Positions 788-54,017 of a stretch of 64,000 nucleotides of DNA are shown here, in pieces (the stretch's first letter is position 1; each line of letters starts with the position of its first letter). Location of the stretch: contig NZ_JACCCC010000001.1 of the NCBI RefSeq assembly GCF_013408795.1, positions 6,014,001-6,078,000 on the forward strand, in the 5' to 3' direction. The notes beneath the pieces were generated by a model. It saw nothing but the letters and a program-made list of their open reading frames with translations. It did not search any database and was not told the origin of the DNA. Source of the stretch: Spinactinospora alkalitolerans (lineage in GTDB: Bacteria > Actinomycetota > Actinomycetes > Streptosporangiales > Streptosporangiaceae). The translations under genes and the position numbers were made by a program.

Positions 788-3697
788 ATGACTCCCCAAC
801 TGTCAGCACGCCGGCGCCGAAGAGCGCCGGTGCCGGGCGCGCTCGCGACCGCTCTGGTCGCGGCGCTGCTCCCTGCGACGCCCGCGGCCGCCGCTGTGGC
901 CTGCTCCGTCGAGTACAACGTCACGAACGAGTGGGGCAGCGGCTTCACCGCCGATGTCTCCGTGACCAACGAGGGCGACGCGGTCCCCGACTGGTCCCTC
1001 GGCTGGACCTTCCCCGACGGCCAGCAGATCACCAACGGCTGGAACGGCGAGTTCAGCCAGAGCGGCGACACCGTCACCGTCAACCACCCGGGCTGGAACC
1101 CCGACCTCGACCCCGGAGAGACCGCGACGGTCGGCTTCCAGGGCAGCATCAGCGGCGCCAACGGCGAACCGACCGGGTTCACCGTCAACGGCGTCGACTG
1201 CGGCGGGACCGGGGGGAACGCGCCGCCGGAGGTCGAGCTCACCTCGCCGGCCGACGGCGCAGCCTTCCTCGCAGGCGACACCGTCGAGCTCGCGGCCGAC
1301 GCCGCCGACGCCGACGGTTCGATCGAGCACGTGGAGTTCAGCGCCGACGGCACCGTCCTCGGCACCGACGACACCGCCCCCTACACCTACTCCTGGACCG
1401 ACGCCGAGGTCGGCCCGTACTCGCTGACCGCCACGGCGGTCGACGACGGCGGCGCCGAGACCGAATCGGCCCCGGTGGCGATCGAGGTGCTGTCCGCTCC
1501 GGCGCTGGTGGCGAGTCCTTCGTCGCTGAGCGTGCGGCAGGGCGACAGCGGCACCTTCGACGTCTCCCTGTCCAACGAGCCCTCCGGTGACGTCTCCGTC
1601 GAGGTGGCCCGCACCGAGGGCAGCGAGGACCTGACCGTCTCCGGCGGCGCCGAGCTGACCTTCACCGGCGACGACTGGGACGAGGCCCAGGAGGTCTCCA
1701 TCGCCTCCGCCGACAACGGCGGCGACCTCGGCACGGCCGTCTTCACGGCTTCGGCCGAAGGCTACGACGCCGCGACGGTCGAGGTGCGCGAGGTCGACGC
1801 GTCGACCTCCGACTACGAGACGGCGTTCCTGGAGCAGTACGAGAAGATCAAGGACCCGGCGAGCGGCTACTTCCGCGAGTTCGGCGGCCTTCTCGTGCCC
1901 TACCACTCGGTGGAGACCCTGATCGTCGAGGCGCCCGACCACGGGCACGCCACGACGTCGGAGGCGTTCAGCTACTACCTGTGGCTGGAGGCCGCCTACG
2001 GCAGGATCACCGGTGAGTGGGAGCCGTTCAACGACGCCTGGGAGTCGATGGAGGAGTTCATCATCCCGGGCACCGAGGACCAGCCCACCAACGGCGCCTA
2101 CGACCCGTCGGCGCCGGCGACCTACATCCCCGAGCACGACACCCCGCAGGGCTACCCGTCCGCGCTCGACAACGGCGTGTCGGTGGGCGAGGACCCGCTC
2201 GCCCAGGAACTGAGCAGCACCTACGGCACCGACGAGGTGTACGGCATGCACTGGCTGCTCGACGTGGACAACACCTACGGGTACGGCTTCTGCGGCGACG
2301 GCACCGACGACGCGCCCGCGTTCGTCAACACCTTCCAGCGCGGCTCGCAGGAGTCGGTCTGGGAGACGGTGCCGCACCCGTCATGCGAGACGTTCGACCA
2401 CGGCGGCGAGAACGGGTTCCTCGACCTGTTCACCGACGACGGCACCTACTCGGAGCAGTGGCGCTACACCAACGCGCCCGACGCCGACGCGCGCGCGGTG
2501 CAGGTGGCCTACCTGGCGCACCAGTGGGCCGGCGAGCAGGGCAACGCCGGCGCCGTCTCGGAGTCGGTGGACAAGGCCGCCATGATGGGCGACTACCTGC
2601 GCTACGCGATGTACGACAAGTACTTCAAGGAGATCGGCGACTGCGTGGGCGCCACCGAATGCGCTGCGGGCAGCGGCAAGAACAGCGCGCACTACCTGAT
2701 GTCCTGGTACTACGCCTGGGGCGGCGCGTTGGAGAGCGCCCAGTACCCGTGGGCCTGGCGGATCGGCGGCAGCTCCTCGCACCAGGGCTACCAGAACCCC
2801 CTGGCGGCCTACGCGCTGTCGGAGGTCGACGCCCTTGAGCCGGACTCGGCCACGGGCACCGAGGACTGGGCCACCAGCATGGACCGGCAGCTGGAGTTCC
2901 TGCAGTGGCTGCAGTCCGCCGAGGGCGGCATCGCCGGCGGCGCCACCAACAGCTGGGCCGGCGACTACTCCGCACCGCCCGCGGGCACCCCGCAGTTCTA
3001 CGGGATGTACTACGACTGGCAGCCGGTCTGGCACGACCCGCCGTCCAACCGGTGGTTCGGCTTCCAGGTGTGGGGCATCGAGCGCGTCGCGCAGCTCTAC
3101 CACGAGACGGGCGACGAGCGGGCCGGGGCCATCCTGGACGACTGGGTGCCCTGGGCCATGGCCAACACCGAGGTCGGCACCGGCGGCGACTTCGCCGTCC
3201 CGGCCGACATGGAGTGGGAGGGCCGGCCCGACACCTGGGACGGCACCTCCACCGGCAACCCCGATCTGCACGTCGAGGTCGTCTCGCACGGGCAGGACGT
3301 GGGCGTGGCCGCAGGCCTGGCCAAGACGCTGCTGTACTACGCGGCCGAGTCCGGCGACGCCGAGGCCCGCGCCATGGGTGAGGACCTGCTGGACGCCCTG
3401 CTCGCCAACCAGGACGAGCTGGGCATCGCCACCGAGGAGACCCGCGCCGACTACCGGCGGTTCGCCGACGAGGTCTACATCCCCGAAGGCTGGTCCGGGG
3501 AGATGCCCAACGGCGACCCGGTCGAGCCCGGCTCCACCTTCGCCTCCATCCGGTCCTTCTACGAGGACGATCCGGCGTGGCCCGAGGTTCAGGAGTACCT
3601 GGACGGCGGGGAGGTCCCGACCTTCACCTACCACCGGTTCTGGGCCCAGGTGGACATCGCCACGGCGTTCGCCGCCCACGACGAGCTGTTCGGTTAA
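788..3697 (+). CDS. cel48A: Secreted CBM2-Ig-GH48 reducing-end exocellulase
   Basis: This encodes a secreted processive exocellulase that releases cellobiose from cellulose chain ends. The 969-residue product starts at an ATG preceded by AGGAAG. An Arg-rich n-region and Ala-rich signal peptide end near residue 36. A family 2 cellulose-binding module follows (about 37-140, with Cys39 and a second Cys near 139 and the usual surface Trp residues). Next come an Ig-like domain (about 148-235) and a second beta-rich linker domain (about 238-335). The GH48 catalytic module runs from about 340 to the end and contains HGHATTSEA, where the family's general-acid Glu lies. The domain order resembles Thermobifida Cel48A, with extra linker modules. 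Two CelR-type operators upstream indicate repression without cellobiose. The 3' end overlaps the convergent ene-reductase gene by 74 bp. Confidence 0.95.
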   Translation: MTPQLSARRRRRAPVPGALATALVAALLPATPAAAAVACSVEYNVTNEWGSGFTADVSVTNEGDAVPDWSLGWTFPDGQQITNGWNGEFSQSGDTVTVNHPGWNPDLDPGETATVGFQGSISGANGEPTGFTVNGVDCGGTGGNAPPEVELTSPADGAAFLAGDTVELAADAADADGSIEHVEFSADGTVLGTDDTAPYTYSWTDAEVGPYSLTATAVDDGGAETESAPVAIEVLSAPALVASPSSLSVRQGDSGTFDVSLSNEPSGDVSVEVARTEGSEDLTVSGGAELTFTGDDWDEAQEVSIASADNGGDLGTAVFTASAEGYDAATVEVREVDASTSDYETAFLEQYEKIKDPASGYFREFGGLLVPYHSVETLIVEAPDHGHATTSEAFSYYLWLEAAYGRITGEWEPFNDAWESMEEFIIPGTEDQPTNGAYDPSAPATYIPEHDTPQGYPSALDNGVSVGEDPLAQELSSTYGTDEVYGMHWLLDVDNTYGYGFCGDGTDDAPAFVNTFQRGSQESVWETVPHPSCETFDHGGENGFLDLFTDDGTYSEQWRYTNAPDADARAVQVAYLAHQWAGEQGNAGAVSESVDKAAMMGDYLRYAMYDKYFKEIGDCVGATECAAGSGKNSAHYLMSWYYAWGGALESAQYPWAWRIGGSSSHQGYQNPLAAYALSEVDALEPDSATGTEDWATSMDRQLEFLQWLQSAEGGIAGGATNSWAGDYSAPPAGTPQFYGMYYDWQPVWHDPPSNRWFGFQVWGIERVAQLYHETGDERAGAILDDWVPWAMANTEVGTGGDFAVPADMEWEGRPDTWDGTSTGNPDLHVEVVSHGQDVGVAAGLAKTLLYYAAESGDAEARAMGEDLLDALLANQDELGIATEETRADYRRFADEVYIPEGWSGEMPNGDPVEPGSTFASIRSFYEDDPAWPEVQEYLDGGEVPTFTYHRFWAQVDIATAFAAHDELFG

Positions 3698-4844
3698 CCC
3701 CCTTCCCGAGCAGCCCGTCCGGGGCCCGCGGCGGTGGCCGCACCGCCGCCGCGGGCTCCGGCACCGCCCTGGGGTAGTCGATGTAGTCGCGCTCGCCCGC
3801 GCCGTAGTGGAAGTCCCCCTCCGGCAGCGACCACGGGACGCCGGCCGCGATGCGCTCCGTCAGGTCGGGGGTGGCGATGTAGGGACGGCCGATGGAGACC
3901 AGGTCGGCCCCGCGCTCGCTGATCAGGCGCTCCGCCGACTCCAGGGTCGTCACCTCGTGCTCGCCGGTGTTGCCGACGAGGGCGCCGCTCCAGTGGGGGC
4001 GCAGGTCGGCCAGTGCGGGGTAGTCGGCGCCGTCGGTGAGGTGCAGGTAGGCCAGGCCGAGCCGGTCGATCGCGGCGAGCGCGGTCCGGTACACCGGGGC
4101 CGGGTCGGCCTCGACCATCTCGTTCTCCGGGTTGCCCGGCGCCAGCCGCAGCCCGACGCGCTCCGCCCCGACGGCGTCGGCCACGGCCTCGGCCAGCTCG
4201 ATCACGAACCGCGCCCGGTTGACCGCCGTGCCGCCGTAGGCGTCGCCGCGCAGGTTGGTGTTGTCGGCGAGGAACTGGTGCGGCAGGTAGCTGTTGGCCC
4301 CGTGGATCTCCACCCCGTCGAATCCGGCGCGCAGGGCGTTGCGCGCCGCGGCGGCGTGGTCGGCGGCGGCCTGCCCGACCTCGGCGGTGCTCATCGCCCT
4401 CGGCGCCACGGGGGCGCGCTTGCCTTCCAGCGTGTGCATCGGGGCGGTGAGGGGGACGGCCGAGGGGGCGAGGGGCGTCCCCCCGTCGATGCGGTTGGCC
4501 GGGTGCCCGTTGCGGCCGGCGTGCATGATCTGGGCGAAGACCCGCCCTCCCGCGGCGTGCACGGCGTCGGTCACCGTGCGCCACGCGGCCACCTGCTCGT
4601 CGGTGGCCAGGCCGGGCTCGGTGAGGTACTGCTGGCCCTGGACGCTCGGCCAGACGCCCTCGGAGACGATCAGTCCGGCGGAGGCCCGCTGCGCGTAGTA
4701 GACGGCCATCATCGGGGTCGGGACACCGCGGCGGTCGGCGCGGAACCGGGTCATGGGCGCCATGACGACCCGGCTCGGCAGGTCGAGCGCCGCGAGGGCG
4801 TAGGGGGCGAGCAGGGGGCTGGATGCGGTGTCGGCTGCGTTCAT
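3624..4844 (-). CDS. Old yellow enzyme family NADH:flavin oxidoreductase (ene-reductase)
   Basis: This is an FMN-dependent ene-reductase of the OYE/XenA-NemA type, which reduces activated C=C bonds with NAD(P)H. The 406-residue product has the N-terminal PMTRFRA segment, QIMHAGR, and the catalytic region GVEIHGANSYL followed by QFLADNTNLRGDAYGG, then a C-terminal phosphate-binding region around SIGRP. It appears complete by about residue 370. The last 35 or so residues are Arg/Pro-rich read-through into the antisense end of the cellulase gene and are probably not functional. It is divergent from a MerR-family gene 59 bp away. A TACGGT hexamer (4856-4851) ends 6 nt before the ATG, suggesting a leaderless transcript under that regulator. 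Confidence 0.92.
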   Translation of the reverse strand: MNAADTASSPLLAPYALAALDLPSRVVMAPMTRFRADRRGVPTPMMAVYYAQRASAGLIVSEGVWPSVQGQQYLTEPGLATDEQVAAWRTVTDAVHAAGGRVFAQIMHAGRNGHPANRIDGGTPLAPSAVPLTAPMHTLEGKRAPVAPRAMSTAEVGQAAADHAAAARNALRAGFDGVEIHGANSYLPHQFLADNTNLRGDAYGGTAVNRARFVIELAEAVADAVGAERVGLRLAPGNPENEMVEADPAPVYRTALAAIDRLGLAYLHLTDGADYPALADLRPHWSGALVGNTGEHEVTTLESAERLISERGADLVSIGRPYIATPDLTERIAAGVPWSLPEGDFHYGAGERDYIDYPRAVPEPAAAVRPPPRAPDGLLGKGVNRTARRGRRTPWRCPPGPRTGGR

Positions 4845-50236: not shown

Positions 50237-50649
50237 CTAGGTGAAGGCGCCGATCTTCTCCATCGACGCCATGGCGGGCAGCCACCGGTCGCGCTGCTCC
50301 TGGTCGCCGCCCGCGTAGATGCTGCCCATGGCCAGGCCGGTGTGCACGCCGGAGAACACCGCCATGGACGGGTCCACCCGGTTCAGTTCGAGGCTGAGGA
50401 ACCCGGCGAACAGCGGGCTGCGGACGGTCCCGTCCCGTATTCGGGGTAGGAGTATCCGGCCAGACGCAGTTCGGCGAACCTCCCGATCGCCTCGAGGGGG
50501 AACTCCGCCTTCTCCCAGCAGGCGTCGGCCAGCGGTTTGATCTCCGCCTCCAGGTACTCCCGGATCCGGGCGAGCTCGGCGCGCTCGGACTCGGGCATGA
50601 GCTCGGCGTAGCCGAAGAAGTCGGAGTCGGCGATGGCGGGTTTGGGCAT
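50237..50649 (-). pseudogene. Frameshifted, truncated acyl-CoA dehydrogenase (glutaryl-CoA type)
   Basis: Frame 1 (from ATG 50649) reads SDFFGYAELMPESERAELAR and on to LAGYSYPEYGTG. A frameshift near 50440 then moves to a second frame reading RSPLFAGFLSLELNRVDPSM, GVHTGLAMGSIYAGGDQEQR and ASMEKIGAF, then a stop. Together this is only the N-terminal third of an acyl-CoA dehydrogenase (about 390 residues usual); the FAD-site and catalytic Glu regions are gone. Confidence 0.88.
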
Positions 50650-51016
50650 GGCGTGTCTCTTTCCTGAGCGTCTGGGGTGTGGGGCGTCGCCGCGACGTCG
50701 ATGCGGCCGTGTTCACCCCTGTTCCGCGCGCCGCAGCGCCTCGATCAGGGCGAGGTGCCCGCGGTCGCGCGCGGGGGCGCGGTCGCGCTGGGCCTGCGGG
50801 CCGGAGCCGTGGGCGTCCTCGACCGCCTCGACCGGCGCCGCGATGGTGGCGGGGGCAGCTCGGGTGTGCCGAGCGCCCTCCAGCGCCGCCGCATGCCGGG
50901 GCCCGGATGCTCCAGCATGTGCCGGATGCCGTCGCTGCCGCCCGGCGACGTCTTCATCACGGTATCGAGTTCGGCGAATTCACGGCCGCGTTCGCACGGG
51001 ATCGGTCCGCGGCCCG
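50650..51016. other. Short region after the YcaO gene, no confident gene
   Basis: On the minus strand one frame (ending near 50718) reads like protein (ATIAAPVEAVEDAHGSG, GHLALIEALRRAEQG) but has no credible start. It may be another remnant. I assign nothing. Confidence 0.4.
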
Positions 51017-52411
51017 TCACACCCGGTCGCGGGCGCGCAGGCGGCGGCCGCGCTCCCCGGGGAGCGCGAGGTGGCCCTTGGTGATCAGGTGGAACCGCTC
51101 CAGGCCGGGGCACTGCACCTGGACCACCGTCGTGCCGTGCTCCAGCACCGCGAGCCGGTGCGCCGCGACCCGGTGCCCGGCGGCGGCGATCCGCTCCACG
51201 ACCGCGGCGCGCTGCCGCGCCACCGGGGTCCCGGGCGGGACGGTCTCGGGCGGGACCCCGGCCACCGGCGCGTCGGCGAGGCGGTCGGCGAAGTCCAGGT
51301 GGGCGCAGGCCAGCAGCCGCGGGTGGCCGGCGAGCCGCTCGCGCACCGCCGCTGCGATGTCGTGCTCGGCCACGACCTGGTCGAACGTCGGGCGCTCCGC
51401 GGGGCGCCGGGCCGGGCGCTCGCGCGGTGCGGCGGCGTGCTCGGCCACGACCCCGGCGAGCAGCTCGCCCTGGACGAACTCGGTGACGGCGCGCTCCACG
51501 GCCGTTTCGCCCGACAGCGACGCGCCGAGCCCGTAGTAGCGCGCCGAGGAGCCGGCCAGAGCGGGCGCGTAGGCCATGACCACGGGCACGCCGAGGTCGG
51601 TGGTCAGGTCCAGCAGGACGACGGGGCCGCCGACGACGGCGGCCGCGCGGTCCAGCCGTTCGCGCAGGAAACCGGGCAGCGCCTCGCGGGGGATGCGCGC
51701 GGGCATCGGCCCGCGGTCGTAGACGCCGCACAGCAGGAACAGGGAGAACGCGTCACGCTCCGCCCACTCGTTCAGCGCGTGCAGCAGCGCCTCGTCGTCG
51801 GTGGCGCCGATGGCGCAGCCGGTGTTGACGCTGTAGGACAGCATCGACCGGTAGTCGGCGGTGTCGCCGAGCCGCGAACGGCGCTCCAGCATTCCCGGCG
51901 TGGGGACGGGATACCACGGCGCCCACAGGAACAGCGGGACGTCGAAGTCGGGGCCGCCGTCGAGCGCGGAATGGCGCAGGCACGCGAGCCGGGCGCCGGG
52001 CTGCCGGGCGGCGTCGCGGACCGCGCGGTCGGCGCCGAACGGGCCGGAGAGGAGGTCGGCGGCGTCGCAGAGCCGCACGGGCAGGGAGTCGAAGACGAGC
52101 GGGCCGCTGAGCGCGTGCTCCAGGGCCTCGAACTGCGCCCCCACGCGGGCGGGCGCGCTCAGTCCCTTCCCGCTGCCCAGGCCGTAGGGGACCTCGGTCC
52201 CGTCGGAGTGCCAGAGCTCGCACTGGGTCGCGGTGGGCTCGTCCTCGTCGAGCACCCGGTAGCGGGAGCGCCATCCCAGGGCGCGGATCTCGGCGTGCAC
52301 CCGCCGCTCCGCCTCGGCGAGGGGCAGTTCGCGCTCGCGCGCGCCCGACCAGGCGGCGTTCCCCGGAGCGGGCGGGAGGGGAAGGGGCCCGGCCCCCTCC
52401 CCTCCGACCAT
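51017..52411 (-). CDS. YcaO-domain protein (putative RiPP-modifying enzyme)
   Basis: This 464-residue YcaO protein should use ATP to activate a peptide backbone amide, giving azolines, thioamides or amidines. ATP-site signatures are intact: GLGSGKGLSAPARVGAQFEA followed by LEHAL, and SVNTGCAIGATDDEALLHAL followed by NEWAERDA. It lacks an E1-like or RRE domain and the PxPxP C-terminus of azoline cyclodehydratases. ATG 52411 is chosen; a TTG at 52435 would overlap the upstream peptide gene. It lies 10 bp after a 38-residue peptide gene and is almost certainly co-transcribed with it. Confidence 0.9.
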   Translation of the reverse strand: MVGGEGAGPLPLPPAPGNAAWSGARERELPLAEAERRVHAEIRALGWRSRYRVLDEDEPTATQCELWHSDGTEVPYGLGSGKGLSAPARVGAQFEALEHALSGPLVFDSLPVRLCDAADLLSGPFGADRAVRDAARQPGARLACLRHSALDGGPDFDVPLFLWAPWYPVPTPGMLERRSRLGDTADYRSMLSYSVNTGCAIGATDDEALLHALNEWAERDAFSLFLLCGVYDRGPMPARIPREALPGFLRERLDRAAAVVGGPVVLLDLTTDLGVPVVMAYAPALAGSSARYYGLGASLSGETAVERAVTEFVQGELLAGVVAEHAAAPRERPARRPAERPTFDQVVAEHDIAAAVRERLAGHPRLLACAHLDFADRLADAPVAGVPPETVPPGTPVARQRAAVVERIAAAGHRVAAHRLAVLEHGTTVVQVQCPGLERFHLITKGHLALPGERGRRLRARDRV

Positions 52412-52421
52412 GGGAGTCCAC

Positions 52422-52538
52422 TCAGGCAGCGGCAACGCTCTCCTGCGCGGTCTCCTCGTCCAGCTCGTCGACGTCCAGGGCGATCTCGGTGTCGACGTGG
52501 TCGAGCGACACGGTCAGGTCGTAACCGGCACAGGCCAT
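52422..52538 (-). CDS. Short acidic peptide, candidate RiPP precursor
   Basis: This 38-residue peptide starts at an ATG with a strong GAGGAG 7 nt upstream. It begins MACAGYDLTVSLDHVD, is acidic in the middle (ALDVDELDEET) and ends AQESVAAA. The D/E/L-rich stretch resembles RiPP leader peptides. Modifiable residues are one Cys (position 3), three Thr, two Ser and one Tyr. It lies immediately upstream of a YcaO gene, the usual place of a precursor. Which part is core is unclear. Confidence 0.78.
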   Translation of the reverse strand: MACAGYDLTVSLDHVDTEIALDVDELDEETAQESVAAA

Positions 52539-52671
52539 GACTCACTCCTCGGCTGGTTGCCTCGAACGCGTAGATCATCCCTACGCACCCATGTTTCTAC
52601 CTTGTTATGAGAGCTTTGTCACTCATTGGAGCTCCCGGACCGCCGACCGGAAAGGCTGGGACACTCGCGCC

Positions 52672-53604
52672 ATGGCGACATCGGAATCGGACCTGCCGGC
52701 CCGCGTCGACGCGTTGATGAACGGCGCGTGGCTGCTCGCGGCGCTGGCCGCGGCGGCGGGCGGGCGGCCCCTGTCCGAGGAGCACGGCGCGCTCCTCGGA
52801 GCCGCCGGGTACGCCGAACGCGGCCCCGAGGGCTGGCGGCTGCCGCCCGCCCACCGCGCGGTGCTGGCGGACCGGGCCGACGCCTTCCCGGCCCAGATCG
52901 CCCGGATCCTGCGCGACGCCGCCGACGCCGCCGAGGGACGCGGCGGGGGCGCCGCCGAGGCGCACGACGGCGAGGACGACGACGCCGCTCTCGTCTCGGC
53001 CGGGAGGTCCTCCGGCGAGCACATGGCCGGGTTCCTGGACCTGCTGGCGGCGCGCGCCCCCGGTTTCGGCGACCTGCTGCGCCGGGACGGCCTGCGCTTC
53101 CTCGACGTCGGCACCGGGACCGGCGCCATCGCGGCGACGGTGGTCGCCCGGGTCCCGGGCGCCCGCGCCGTCGGGCTGGACGTCCAGCCGCGGATCCTGC
53201 GCCTCGCCGAGGAGCGGTTGGCCGACCGCGGCCTCCTCGACCGCGTCGAGCTGCGGTTGCAGGACGTCGCCGACCTCGCCGAGACCGGAGCCTACGACCT
53301 GGCGTGGCTGCCGCTGTCGGTCATCGCGCCGGAGGCCGCCGTCCGGGCCCTGCCGCGCGTGCGCGCCGCCCTGCGCCCCGGAGGCCGGCTGATCTGCGCC
53401 ACCGCGCTGCGCGGCGGGCGGCCGGACGGGACCGGCGCCGTGCGGGAGGCCGTCATCCGGTGGCGGGCGGCCCGCAGGGGCATCACCCCGTGGCCCCCGG
53501 CCGAACTGGCCGAACGGCTGACCGCGGCCGGCTACCACGGCATCCGGGAGGTCGAGACGCCCCCGCACGGCATGGCCGTCGTCATCGCCGAGGCCCCGCG
53601 CTGA
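52672..53604 (+). CDS. SAM-dependent class I methyltransferase
   Basis: This 310-residue methyltransferase has motif I FLDVGTGTGAIAATVV, an acidic loop GLDVQPRILRLAEERL and DLAWLPLSVI, with an N-terminal helical/winged-helix part (1-105) like natural-product O- and N-methyltransferases. It is divergent from the peptide-YcaO operon (133 bp between starts), so it may be a tailoring enzyme of the same product. Confidence 0.87.
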   Translation: MATSESDLPARVDALMNGAWLLAALAAAAGGRPLSEEHGALLGAAGYAERGPEGWRLPPAHRAVLADRADAFPAQIARILRDAADAAEGRGGGAAEAHDGEDDDAALVSAGRSSGEHMAGFLDLLAARAPGFGDLLRRDGLRFLDVGTGTGAIAATVVARVPGARAVGLDVQPRILRLAEERLADRGLLDRVELRLQDVADLAETGAYDLAWLPLSVIAPEAAVRALPRVRAALRPGGRLICATALRGGRPDGTGAVREAVIRWRAARRGITPWPPAELAERLTAAGYHGIREVETPPHGMAVVIAEAPR

Positions 53605-53608
53605 TCCT

Positions 53609-53945
53609 TCATGCACCGTCCTCGGCCACCGAGGTCTTTGCCCCAGCCAAGGAGGGATCCACGGTGGCCGGGCGACGGTGCACGCCGCCCCCGGCCTCAG
53701 GGGGGTTGAACCTCAACCACAGGAGGGATCCGCGGTGACCGGGCGATCCCTTGATGGGCCTTCGGCCACGCGAGAGGATCGCCCACCCGCGCGCCCTCCC
53801 TCCTGGGGCGGGCCTACACAACCCCCTGAAGTCAAGGCCTCTTCCACCTCTCCTGGGGCGGGCCTACACAACCCCCTGGGGCCGAGGTACGCGCGCCATC
53901 CCTCCTGGCGCGGGCGGCACTGGGACGGGCACGCGACTCCTCCTG
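53609..53945. repeat. Mosaic intergenic repeat, family A, copy 2 (with 28-bp direct repeats)
   Basis: Positions 53801-53828 and 53851-53878 are identical 28-mers (begin TCCTGGGGCGGG, end AACCCCCTG) with a 50-bp period. An inverted, slightly changed copy lies near 63193-63222, and a related unit near 15358. TTCGGCCACGCGAGAGGATC also recurs. The region 53605-54017 has no gene. Confidence 0.75.
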
Positions 53946-54017
53946 AGGCGAGGCGCGCAACTTGTGGCGGTGCGGGCGCGGTAGCGTTCGGGTGACCGTT
54001 CGACGCAGTCGAAGAGC

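Follow-up and report, generated by a model that had tools for sequence, protein, structure and literature searches.

A conserved peptide–YcaO–methyltransferase trio of Spinactinospora alkalitolerans that probably makes a small modified peptide by pared-down bottromycin chemistry

The DNA analysed here (hereafter, the window) is a 64,000-nucleotide stretch of the Spinactinospora alkalitolerans genome (assembly GCF_013408795.1, contig NZ_JACCCC010000001.1, positions 6,014,001 to 6,078,000), in which the genes for a short peptide, a YcaO protein and a divergently transcribed methyltransferase form a conserved trio. The peptide gene (52538–52422, minus strand) encodes on translation a precursor-like peptide of 38 residues, MACAGYDLTVSLDHVDTEIALDVDELDEETAQESVAAA, with a putative N-terminal core (M-A-C-A...) and an acidic C-terminal part that reads as a follower; the open reading frame (ORF) was also recovered by tblastn, by profile search and in all of the 22 loci with a close YcaO described below. 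It is preceded by a ribosome-binding site, GAGGAG (52550–52545, minus strand), and similar sites are seen in the alignment of the relatives. The gene for the stand-alone YcaO (51017–52435, minus strand), recognized by Pfam and placed in the bottromycin lineage by profile and trees, ends at 51017 and most likely begins with TTG at 52435, since TTG or GTG occupies the corresponding early position in the relatives; with this start, the YcaO and peptide genes share 14 nt. Facing this pair is the gene for a class I S-adenosylmethionine (SAM)-dependent methyltransferase with an N-terminal helical part (52672–53604, plus strand; Pfam, model and homologue searches). A putative promoter of the peptide–YcaO pair (52594–52622, minus strand) was noticed by eye in the alignment: the hexamers GTGACA (52622–52617) and TAGAAA (52599–52594) are separated by 17 bp, and GTGACA stands at the homologous place in 16 of the 22 loci. 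The original prediction, made from the sequence of the window alone, had the coordinates, the gene calls and the ribosome site of the peptide gene right. It also placed the peptide correctly upstream of the YcaO gene, but the distance of 10 bp that it gave assumed an ATG start at 52411 and is replaced by the 14-nt overlap.

Of 297 genomes searched from the family of the host, 136 gave some YcaO match and 21, the host included, a close YcaO (at least 60% identity in the family search table); the 22nd close locus comes from Actinomadura rudentiformis. Loci L033–L038, which are the same places as six of the genome loci, were not counted twice. The YcaOs of these 22 loci are close ones (56–76% identity), and in every locus the peptide ORF lies directly upstream of the YcaO gene with the methyltransferase gene divergent, so that the minimal trio predicted for the window, which resembles loci for ribosomally synthesized and post-translationally modified peptides (RiPPs), is real. 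A close YcaO standing without the peptide, the situation singled out by the original prediction as speaking against it, was not found among the 22 loci; in the 20 more distant (second-tier) loci examined, the upstream peptide was not found in one, L071. In the sampled 296 genomes of the class, YcaO matches outside the family reached at most 43 bits among the matches listed. At E < 1e-12, the peptide profile picked out 21 of the 297 family genomes; they are the same 21 that carry a close YcaO, and each match lies beside that gene. These matches arise by construction, because the profile was made from the peptides of the same loci; the absence of strong matches from the other 276 family genomes, where the next match has an E-value of only 0.022, is not due to the construction of the profile.

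Clustering of the called ORFs, up to ~9 kb on each side where the sequence extends that far, revealed no further gene common to all 22 loci, and the largest additional ORF cluster touching them has members in 7 of the 22. The clustering used a simple codon-GC ORF caller, and the ORFs were not annotated individually; the caller missed the methyltransferase of L047, which is shown by tblastn. Thus, at the level of clusters rather than of gene-by-gene annotation, none of the usual partners named as missing in the original prediction (TfuA, an E1 or RiPP recognition element (RRE) partner, a dehydrogenase, a transporter) is common to the loci. In locus L057 (genome G021), the coding sequence of the close YcaO runs in two different frames, through either an error of sequencing or disruption of the gene; its C terminus is therefore out of frame in the alignment and in the tree.

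Alignment of the peptides from the 22 loci revealed that M1 (GTG-coded in one), [A/G]2 (Gly2 in two relatives) and C3 are fixed, while residues 4–16 vary by subclade, the types being AGYDLTVSLDHV, AGYEWTVPLENA, ASLMMSSPIDPT and AYKFNAVDLDVV. Towards the C terminus, E25-[L/M]-[D/E] is kept across the close peptides, and in 13 of the 22 loci the peptide ends at 31 residues, soon after this motif. M1, C3 and E25 are invariant in 15 distinct peptides. The conservation script preselected ORFs by residues 1–3, but the same ORFs appear in the unfiltered list and in the tblastn results. Codons differ at positions 1, 2 and 3 in 0.30, 0.28 and 0.45 of the compared codons; third positions differ most, as expected for coding sequence under constraint. 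The acidic stretch reads as a follower because of its conservation and its position at the C terminus, immediately before the end of the peptide in 13 of the 22 loci, and the variable N-terminal part reads as the core; the earlier description of the D/E/L stretch as a leader is thereby reversed. The position of the Cys at residue 3 was seen correctly at that time, but it is an invariant feature of the 22 loci and no oddity. A profile of the close peptides matches the bottromycin precursor, in its follower, better than 990 of 1000 shuffles.

The YcaO protein matches PF02624 over residues 81–438 of 464 (E-value, 1.7e-30; 107 bits, against a curated cut-off of 25.7) and the host genome of 6.68 Mb encodes no other YcaO. 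Residues E215, E223, E226, R315, E319 and Q322, which we take to be the ATP/Mg2+ residues of YcaO enzymes, are invariant in 35 sequences, in agreement with the intact ATP site described earlier. A search of PDB sequences returned three distant YcaOs, namely MJ1094, TruD and LynD. For comparison with characterized systems, bottromycin loci were located by matches to NF033414, the bottromycin precursor family, in 2 of 343 genomes of the genus of genome G319; the YcaO gene next to the precursor was assigned as btmE, and the gene that follows and overlaps it as btmF, according to the gene order in the accessible text of PMC7113386. The streptamidine YcaO (AmiD) was taken from one of 51 genomes, where a HLSATH-coding pattern, found in 5 of the 51, lies 3 kb from a YcaO gene.

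A YcaO profile built from the 22 close and 20 second-tier sequences and run on 58 other loci matched 54 of them, with scores of 231 and 221 bits for BtmF, 51–52 bits for BtmE and 25 bits for AmiD. Loci L083 (448 bits) and L085 (401 bits) and the fragment L086 (170 bits) are further lineage members that the window YcaO had already matched, and the best remaining YcaO scored 87 bits. Three quick trees were calculated without bootstrap; L086 fragments and loci L132, L134, L135 and L136, which had no profile match, were left out, and L084, the same place as L069, was not used. In the tree of 97 rows, 48 rows (close, second-tier, L083, L085, BtmE and BtmF) separate from the 49 others with a Shimodaira–Hasegawa-like approximate likelihood-ratio (SH-aLRT) value of 99; the same split receives 100 without BtmE, whose branch is long, and 99 without BtmF. 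AmiD falls outside this clade. By sequence, the window YcaO thus belongs with the bottromycin YcaOs and is nearest to BtmF by profile score, and its end, PGLERF...LALPGERGRRLR, resembles that of BtmF, PGLEMF...PVLPTGRLGERLR. The PxPxP C terminus is not present in the window YcaO, which decides for neither ring type, because BtmE also ends without PxPxP and a proline-rich end is described for the amidine enzyme AmiD (accessible text of PMC8442711).

The second tier consists of loci from 38 genomes scoring below the close group (best match of at least 70 bits), of which 20 were fetched. These loci share with the trio the YcaO clade and a short upstream ORF, which starts with M/V-[G/A] in 19 of the 20; 18 of these ORFs were obtained by the start filter and that of L074 separately, and the unfiltered list shows them too. 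They differ from the trio in having a follower of the type L[ST]xxExxx[LIM] instead of ELDE, and in carrying no such methyltransferase (no match at E < 1e-3 in the 20 loci, except for 1.2e-4 in L073). The peptides of this sister group begin with GNVVDY, GKVVDY and similar sequences, that of bottromycin with GPVVVF. With numbering that starts after Met, the main subclade (14 loci) resembles bottromycin G-P-V-V-V-F at two positions: of 13 peptides, 12 have V or I at residue 4 and all 13 have Y or F at residue 6. The fuller follower pattern L[ST]xxExxx[LIM]xx[LFWI], which also allows F, I or V at its first position, is present in 18 of 19 second-tier and plasmid peptides as well as in the bottromycin precursor. 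Because it was defined with these peptides and the precursor already in view, its shuffle values are descriptive.

In 12 of the 14 main-subclade loci, a protein of 707–741 residues that belongs to one cluster and has transmembrane-like segments at both ends is encoded downstream of the peptide–YcaO pair, within ~230 nt in 11 of the 12 (for example, L059:6200–8377, minus strand). Both of the two proteins scanned against Pfam contain a NACHT nucleoside triphosphatase domain (E-values, 9.7e-12 and 1.7e-11), and the main subclade may therefore represent a peptide–YcaO–NACHT module with a predicted membrane NACHT protein. Other relatives have different neighbours. Locus L075 (9262–12292, plus strand), of another second-tier type, encodes the peptide MGNSNSNGQSLL..., a YcaO and, directly downstream, a major facilitator superfamily (MFS) transporter, so some relatives carry an exporter. 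On the plasmid of Streptomyces sp. NBC_01707 (L083, 7671–10860), a 53-residue upstream ORF (MGTGDLKLLC...) is found with the related YcaO and, downstream of the latter, a SagB-family dehydrogenase, near the end of the linear plasmid.

The product of the divergent gene is a class I methyltransferase (Methyltransf_25; E-value, 2.3e-14), as originally predicted, and faces the peptide–YcaO pair in all 22 loci. Its structural model has a predicted local distance difference test (pLDDT) value of 79, and in our reading of this model the N-terminal helical part is winged-helix-like. Fold matches include Rv2258c, DsyB, SibL, TnmJ, SgvM and MfnG. Since the neighbours in sequence and fold are many different class I methyltransferases, no substrate is named here. 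The PADLOC match to mad2 over the methyltransferase domain (5.6e-19, the best of several weak or domain-level matches) was read as superfamily similarity. No relative of the methyltransferase was detected by tblastn in two 20 kb bottromycin loci (best E-value, 0.36). Orthologues of at least 52% identity were found in 16 of 250 genomes, 15 of which are trio genomes, and the next best match has 38% identity.

Outside the trio, an acyl-CoA dehydrogenase remnant lies at 50237–50716 (minus strand); its N-terminal domain matches in one frame (E-value, 1.7e-6) and family-like sequence continues, by eye, in another, so that it looks like a broken gene. Between the methyltransferase gene and the next gene (53620–53960), short GC-rich repeats were noticed by eye, including two copies each of GGAGGGATCC and CTCCTGGGGCGGGCCTACACAACCCCCTG.

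Taken together, the trio probably produces a small modified peptide through a simplified form of bottromycin chemistry. We consider it likely that its architecture is that of a follower-guided RiPP. The chemistry that we favour tentatively, and rate at somewhat less than an even chance, is that of a leaderless peptide in which the YcaO closes an N-terminal amidine and the methyltransferase caps it. Methionine aminopeptidase would remove Met1 and expose Ala2 (Gly2 in two relatives); the YcaO would recognize the acidic C-terminal follower, around E25-L-D-E, and with ATP activate a backbone amide near the N terminus; the new N-terminal amine would then attack the activated amide to give a lactamidine ring (−18 Da), as BtmF does in bottromycin. 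The divergent methyltransferase would subsequently methylate the N-terminal region, with the Cys3 thiol or a nitrogen as a possible site and a mass gain of 14 Da or a multiple of it, and ordinary peptidases may trim the follower. The N-terminal lactamidine is favoured because of the kinship to BtmF and because a small residue would be exposed after removal of Met.

Several findings weigh against this proposal. The follower match of the close peptides to bottromycin is weak, as 10 of 1000 shuffles reach it, and the second-tier follower motif occurs in 0 of 20 distinct close peptides. The window YcaO is only 27–28% identical to BtmF, and its structural model (mean pLDDT 48, from an alignment of 8 sequences) was too poor and was not used. 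BtmF works with BtmI in vivo, and the 22 loci have no third gene in common. BtmE, which is linked to the thiazoline, belongs to this clade too, where its branch is long, and the clade therefore does not fix the ring type. The invariant Cys3 is not required by a plain N-terminal amidine and fits a thiazoline better. Finally, in genome G010 a methyltransferase of 63% identity occurs with neither peptide nor YcaO in the 9 kb around it (on a 203 kb contig) and with no YcaO match genome-wide.

The invariance of Cys3, kept in 22 of 22 loci while the following positions vary, speaks for a BtmE-like alternative with the same follower-guided architecture, in which the YcaO would turn Cys3 into a thiazoline with the Ala2 or Gly2 carbonyl and the methyltransferase would cap the N-terminal amine. 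BtmE, implied as the thiazoline maker in the accessible text of PMC5103208, shares the clade with the window YcaO, but its profile score (51–52 bits) is far below that of BtmF (221–231 bits), and the relatives do not share the Cys: it stands at position 3 in 0 of 19 second-tier and plasmid peptides, and within the first ten residues in 3 of 19. We regard this alternative as possible, but rather doubtful. The isolated methyltransferase of G010, together with the separate divergent transcript of this gene, would suit an immunity or target-modifying function instead of tailoring. This is compatible with the other readings but unlikely, as 15 of the 16 orthologues are found in trio genomes, and the many class I neighbours do not tell the substrate. 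In G010 (L140, ~3040–3942), by eye, another ORF opens ~200 nt upstream of the methyltransferase, at the place that the peptide would occupy.

Two further explanations are very unlikely. YcaO enzymes use several nucleophiles (accessible texts of PMC13063428 and PMC12338566), and the window YcaO might modify the peptide otherwise, e.g., to a thioamide or to an amidine with outside ammonia, but the 22 loci have no additional gene in common, which leaves no shared TfuA or sulfur-transfer gene, and the closest characterized enzymes are BtmE and BtmF of bottromycin. Equally improbable is a short ORF with only a regulatory or coupling role in YcaO translation, with YcaO and methyltransferase acting on another protein: the overlap with the YcaO start would permit coupling, and a ribosomal protein is the reported target of E. 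coli YcaO (accessible text of PMC13063428), but it is the amino-acid sequence that is kept, third codon positions differ most, and the second-tier relatives and bottromycin also have a short upstream peptide gene.

Among known systems, azol(in)e RiPPs (thiazole/oxazole-modified microcins) were set aside, as no E1/Ocin-ThiF partner is common to the 22 loci and neither a PxPxP end nor a Cys/Ser/Thr-rich core is present; TIGR03604 gives the window YcaO 65.9 bits against a cut-off of 219.25. Thioamidated RiPPs were set aside only tentatively: clustering showed no gene shared by all the loci apart from the trio, but no search aimed at TfuA was made. Streptamidine and spyrimidone, the latter known to us from citations alone, resemble the trio in combining an actinobacterial YcaO with a short precursor, and streptamidine has an amidine ring. 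However, according to the accessible text of PMC8442711, the streptamidine precursor AmiA has a leader, a core (HLSATH) and a follower, and amiB, amiC and amiE are needed. The ALV motif of streptamidine precursors was not seen by eye in the 22 close peptides, the Ami partner genes are not common to the loci, and a streptamidine-like system is ruled out by the position of AmiD outside the clade and its score of 25 bits. A description of the trio was not found in the literature searched, of which coverage was partial; the streptamidine study covered 1514 actinobacterial YcaOs of the stand-alone type (PMC8442711, accessible text), and its supplementary peptide networks may list these peptides unnamed.

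The closest likeness is to bottromycin: a YcaO without an evident partner gene, in one clade with BtmE and BtmF (SH-aLRT 99–100), a precursor gene directly upstream of the YcaO gene, and an N-terminal core with a C-terminal follower (for bottromycin, accessible text of PMC7136475; reference precursor, MGPVVVFDCMTADF...). BtmF alone is said to suffice in vitro for ring formation. In btmF mutants, the thiazoline is still formed but the macrocycle is not; BtmF cooperates with BtmI in vivo, and the data imply that BtmE makes the thiazoline (accessible text of PMC5103208). Bottromycin loci have two YcaOs, against one in the host genome; the bottromycin core is GPVVVFDC, against ACAGYDL... here; and the bottromycin set of radical-SAM methyltransferase, P450, amidohydrolase and peptidase has no shared counterpart in the 22 loci. 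NF033414 has no match in the host genome (G000) or in 396 genomes of the phylum. Thus, with one YcaO, another core and no accessory gene common to the loci, the product would not be a bottromycin, and of the new YcaO-dependent peptide class once suggested for the window a new, stripped-down branch remains, not a wholly new class, as the YcaO groups with the bottromycin YcaOs. A bolder and doubtful extension is that the trio represents the smallest known follower-guided amidine RiPP, with a precursor of 31–39 residues, one partner-free YcaO and one methyltransferase, and with the invariant Cys in a new N-terminal ring (e.g., an amidine with a methylated Cys, or a sulfur-linked one), bottromycin being an elaborated member of a wider family that includes the peptide–YcaO–NACHT loci. 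The bottromycin macroamidine is a rare structure, and simpler single-YcaO relatives would show what follower recognition and ring choice need, supply small peptide-cyclization enzymes and place bottromycin in a wider family.

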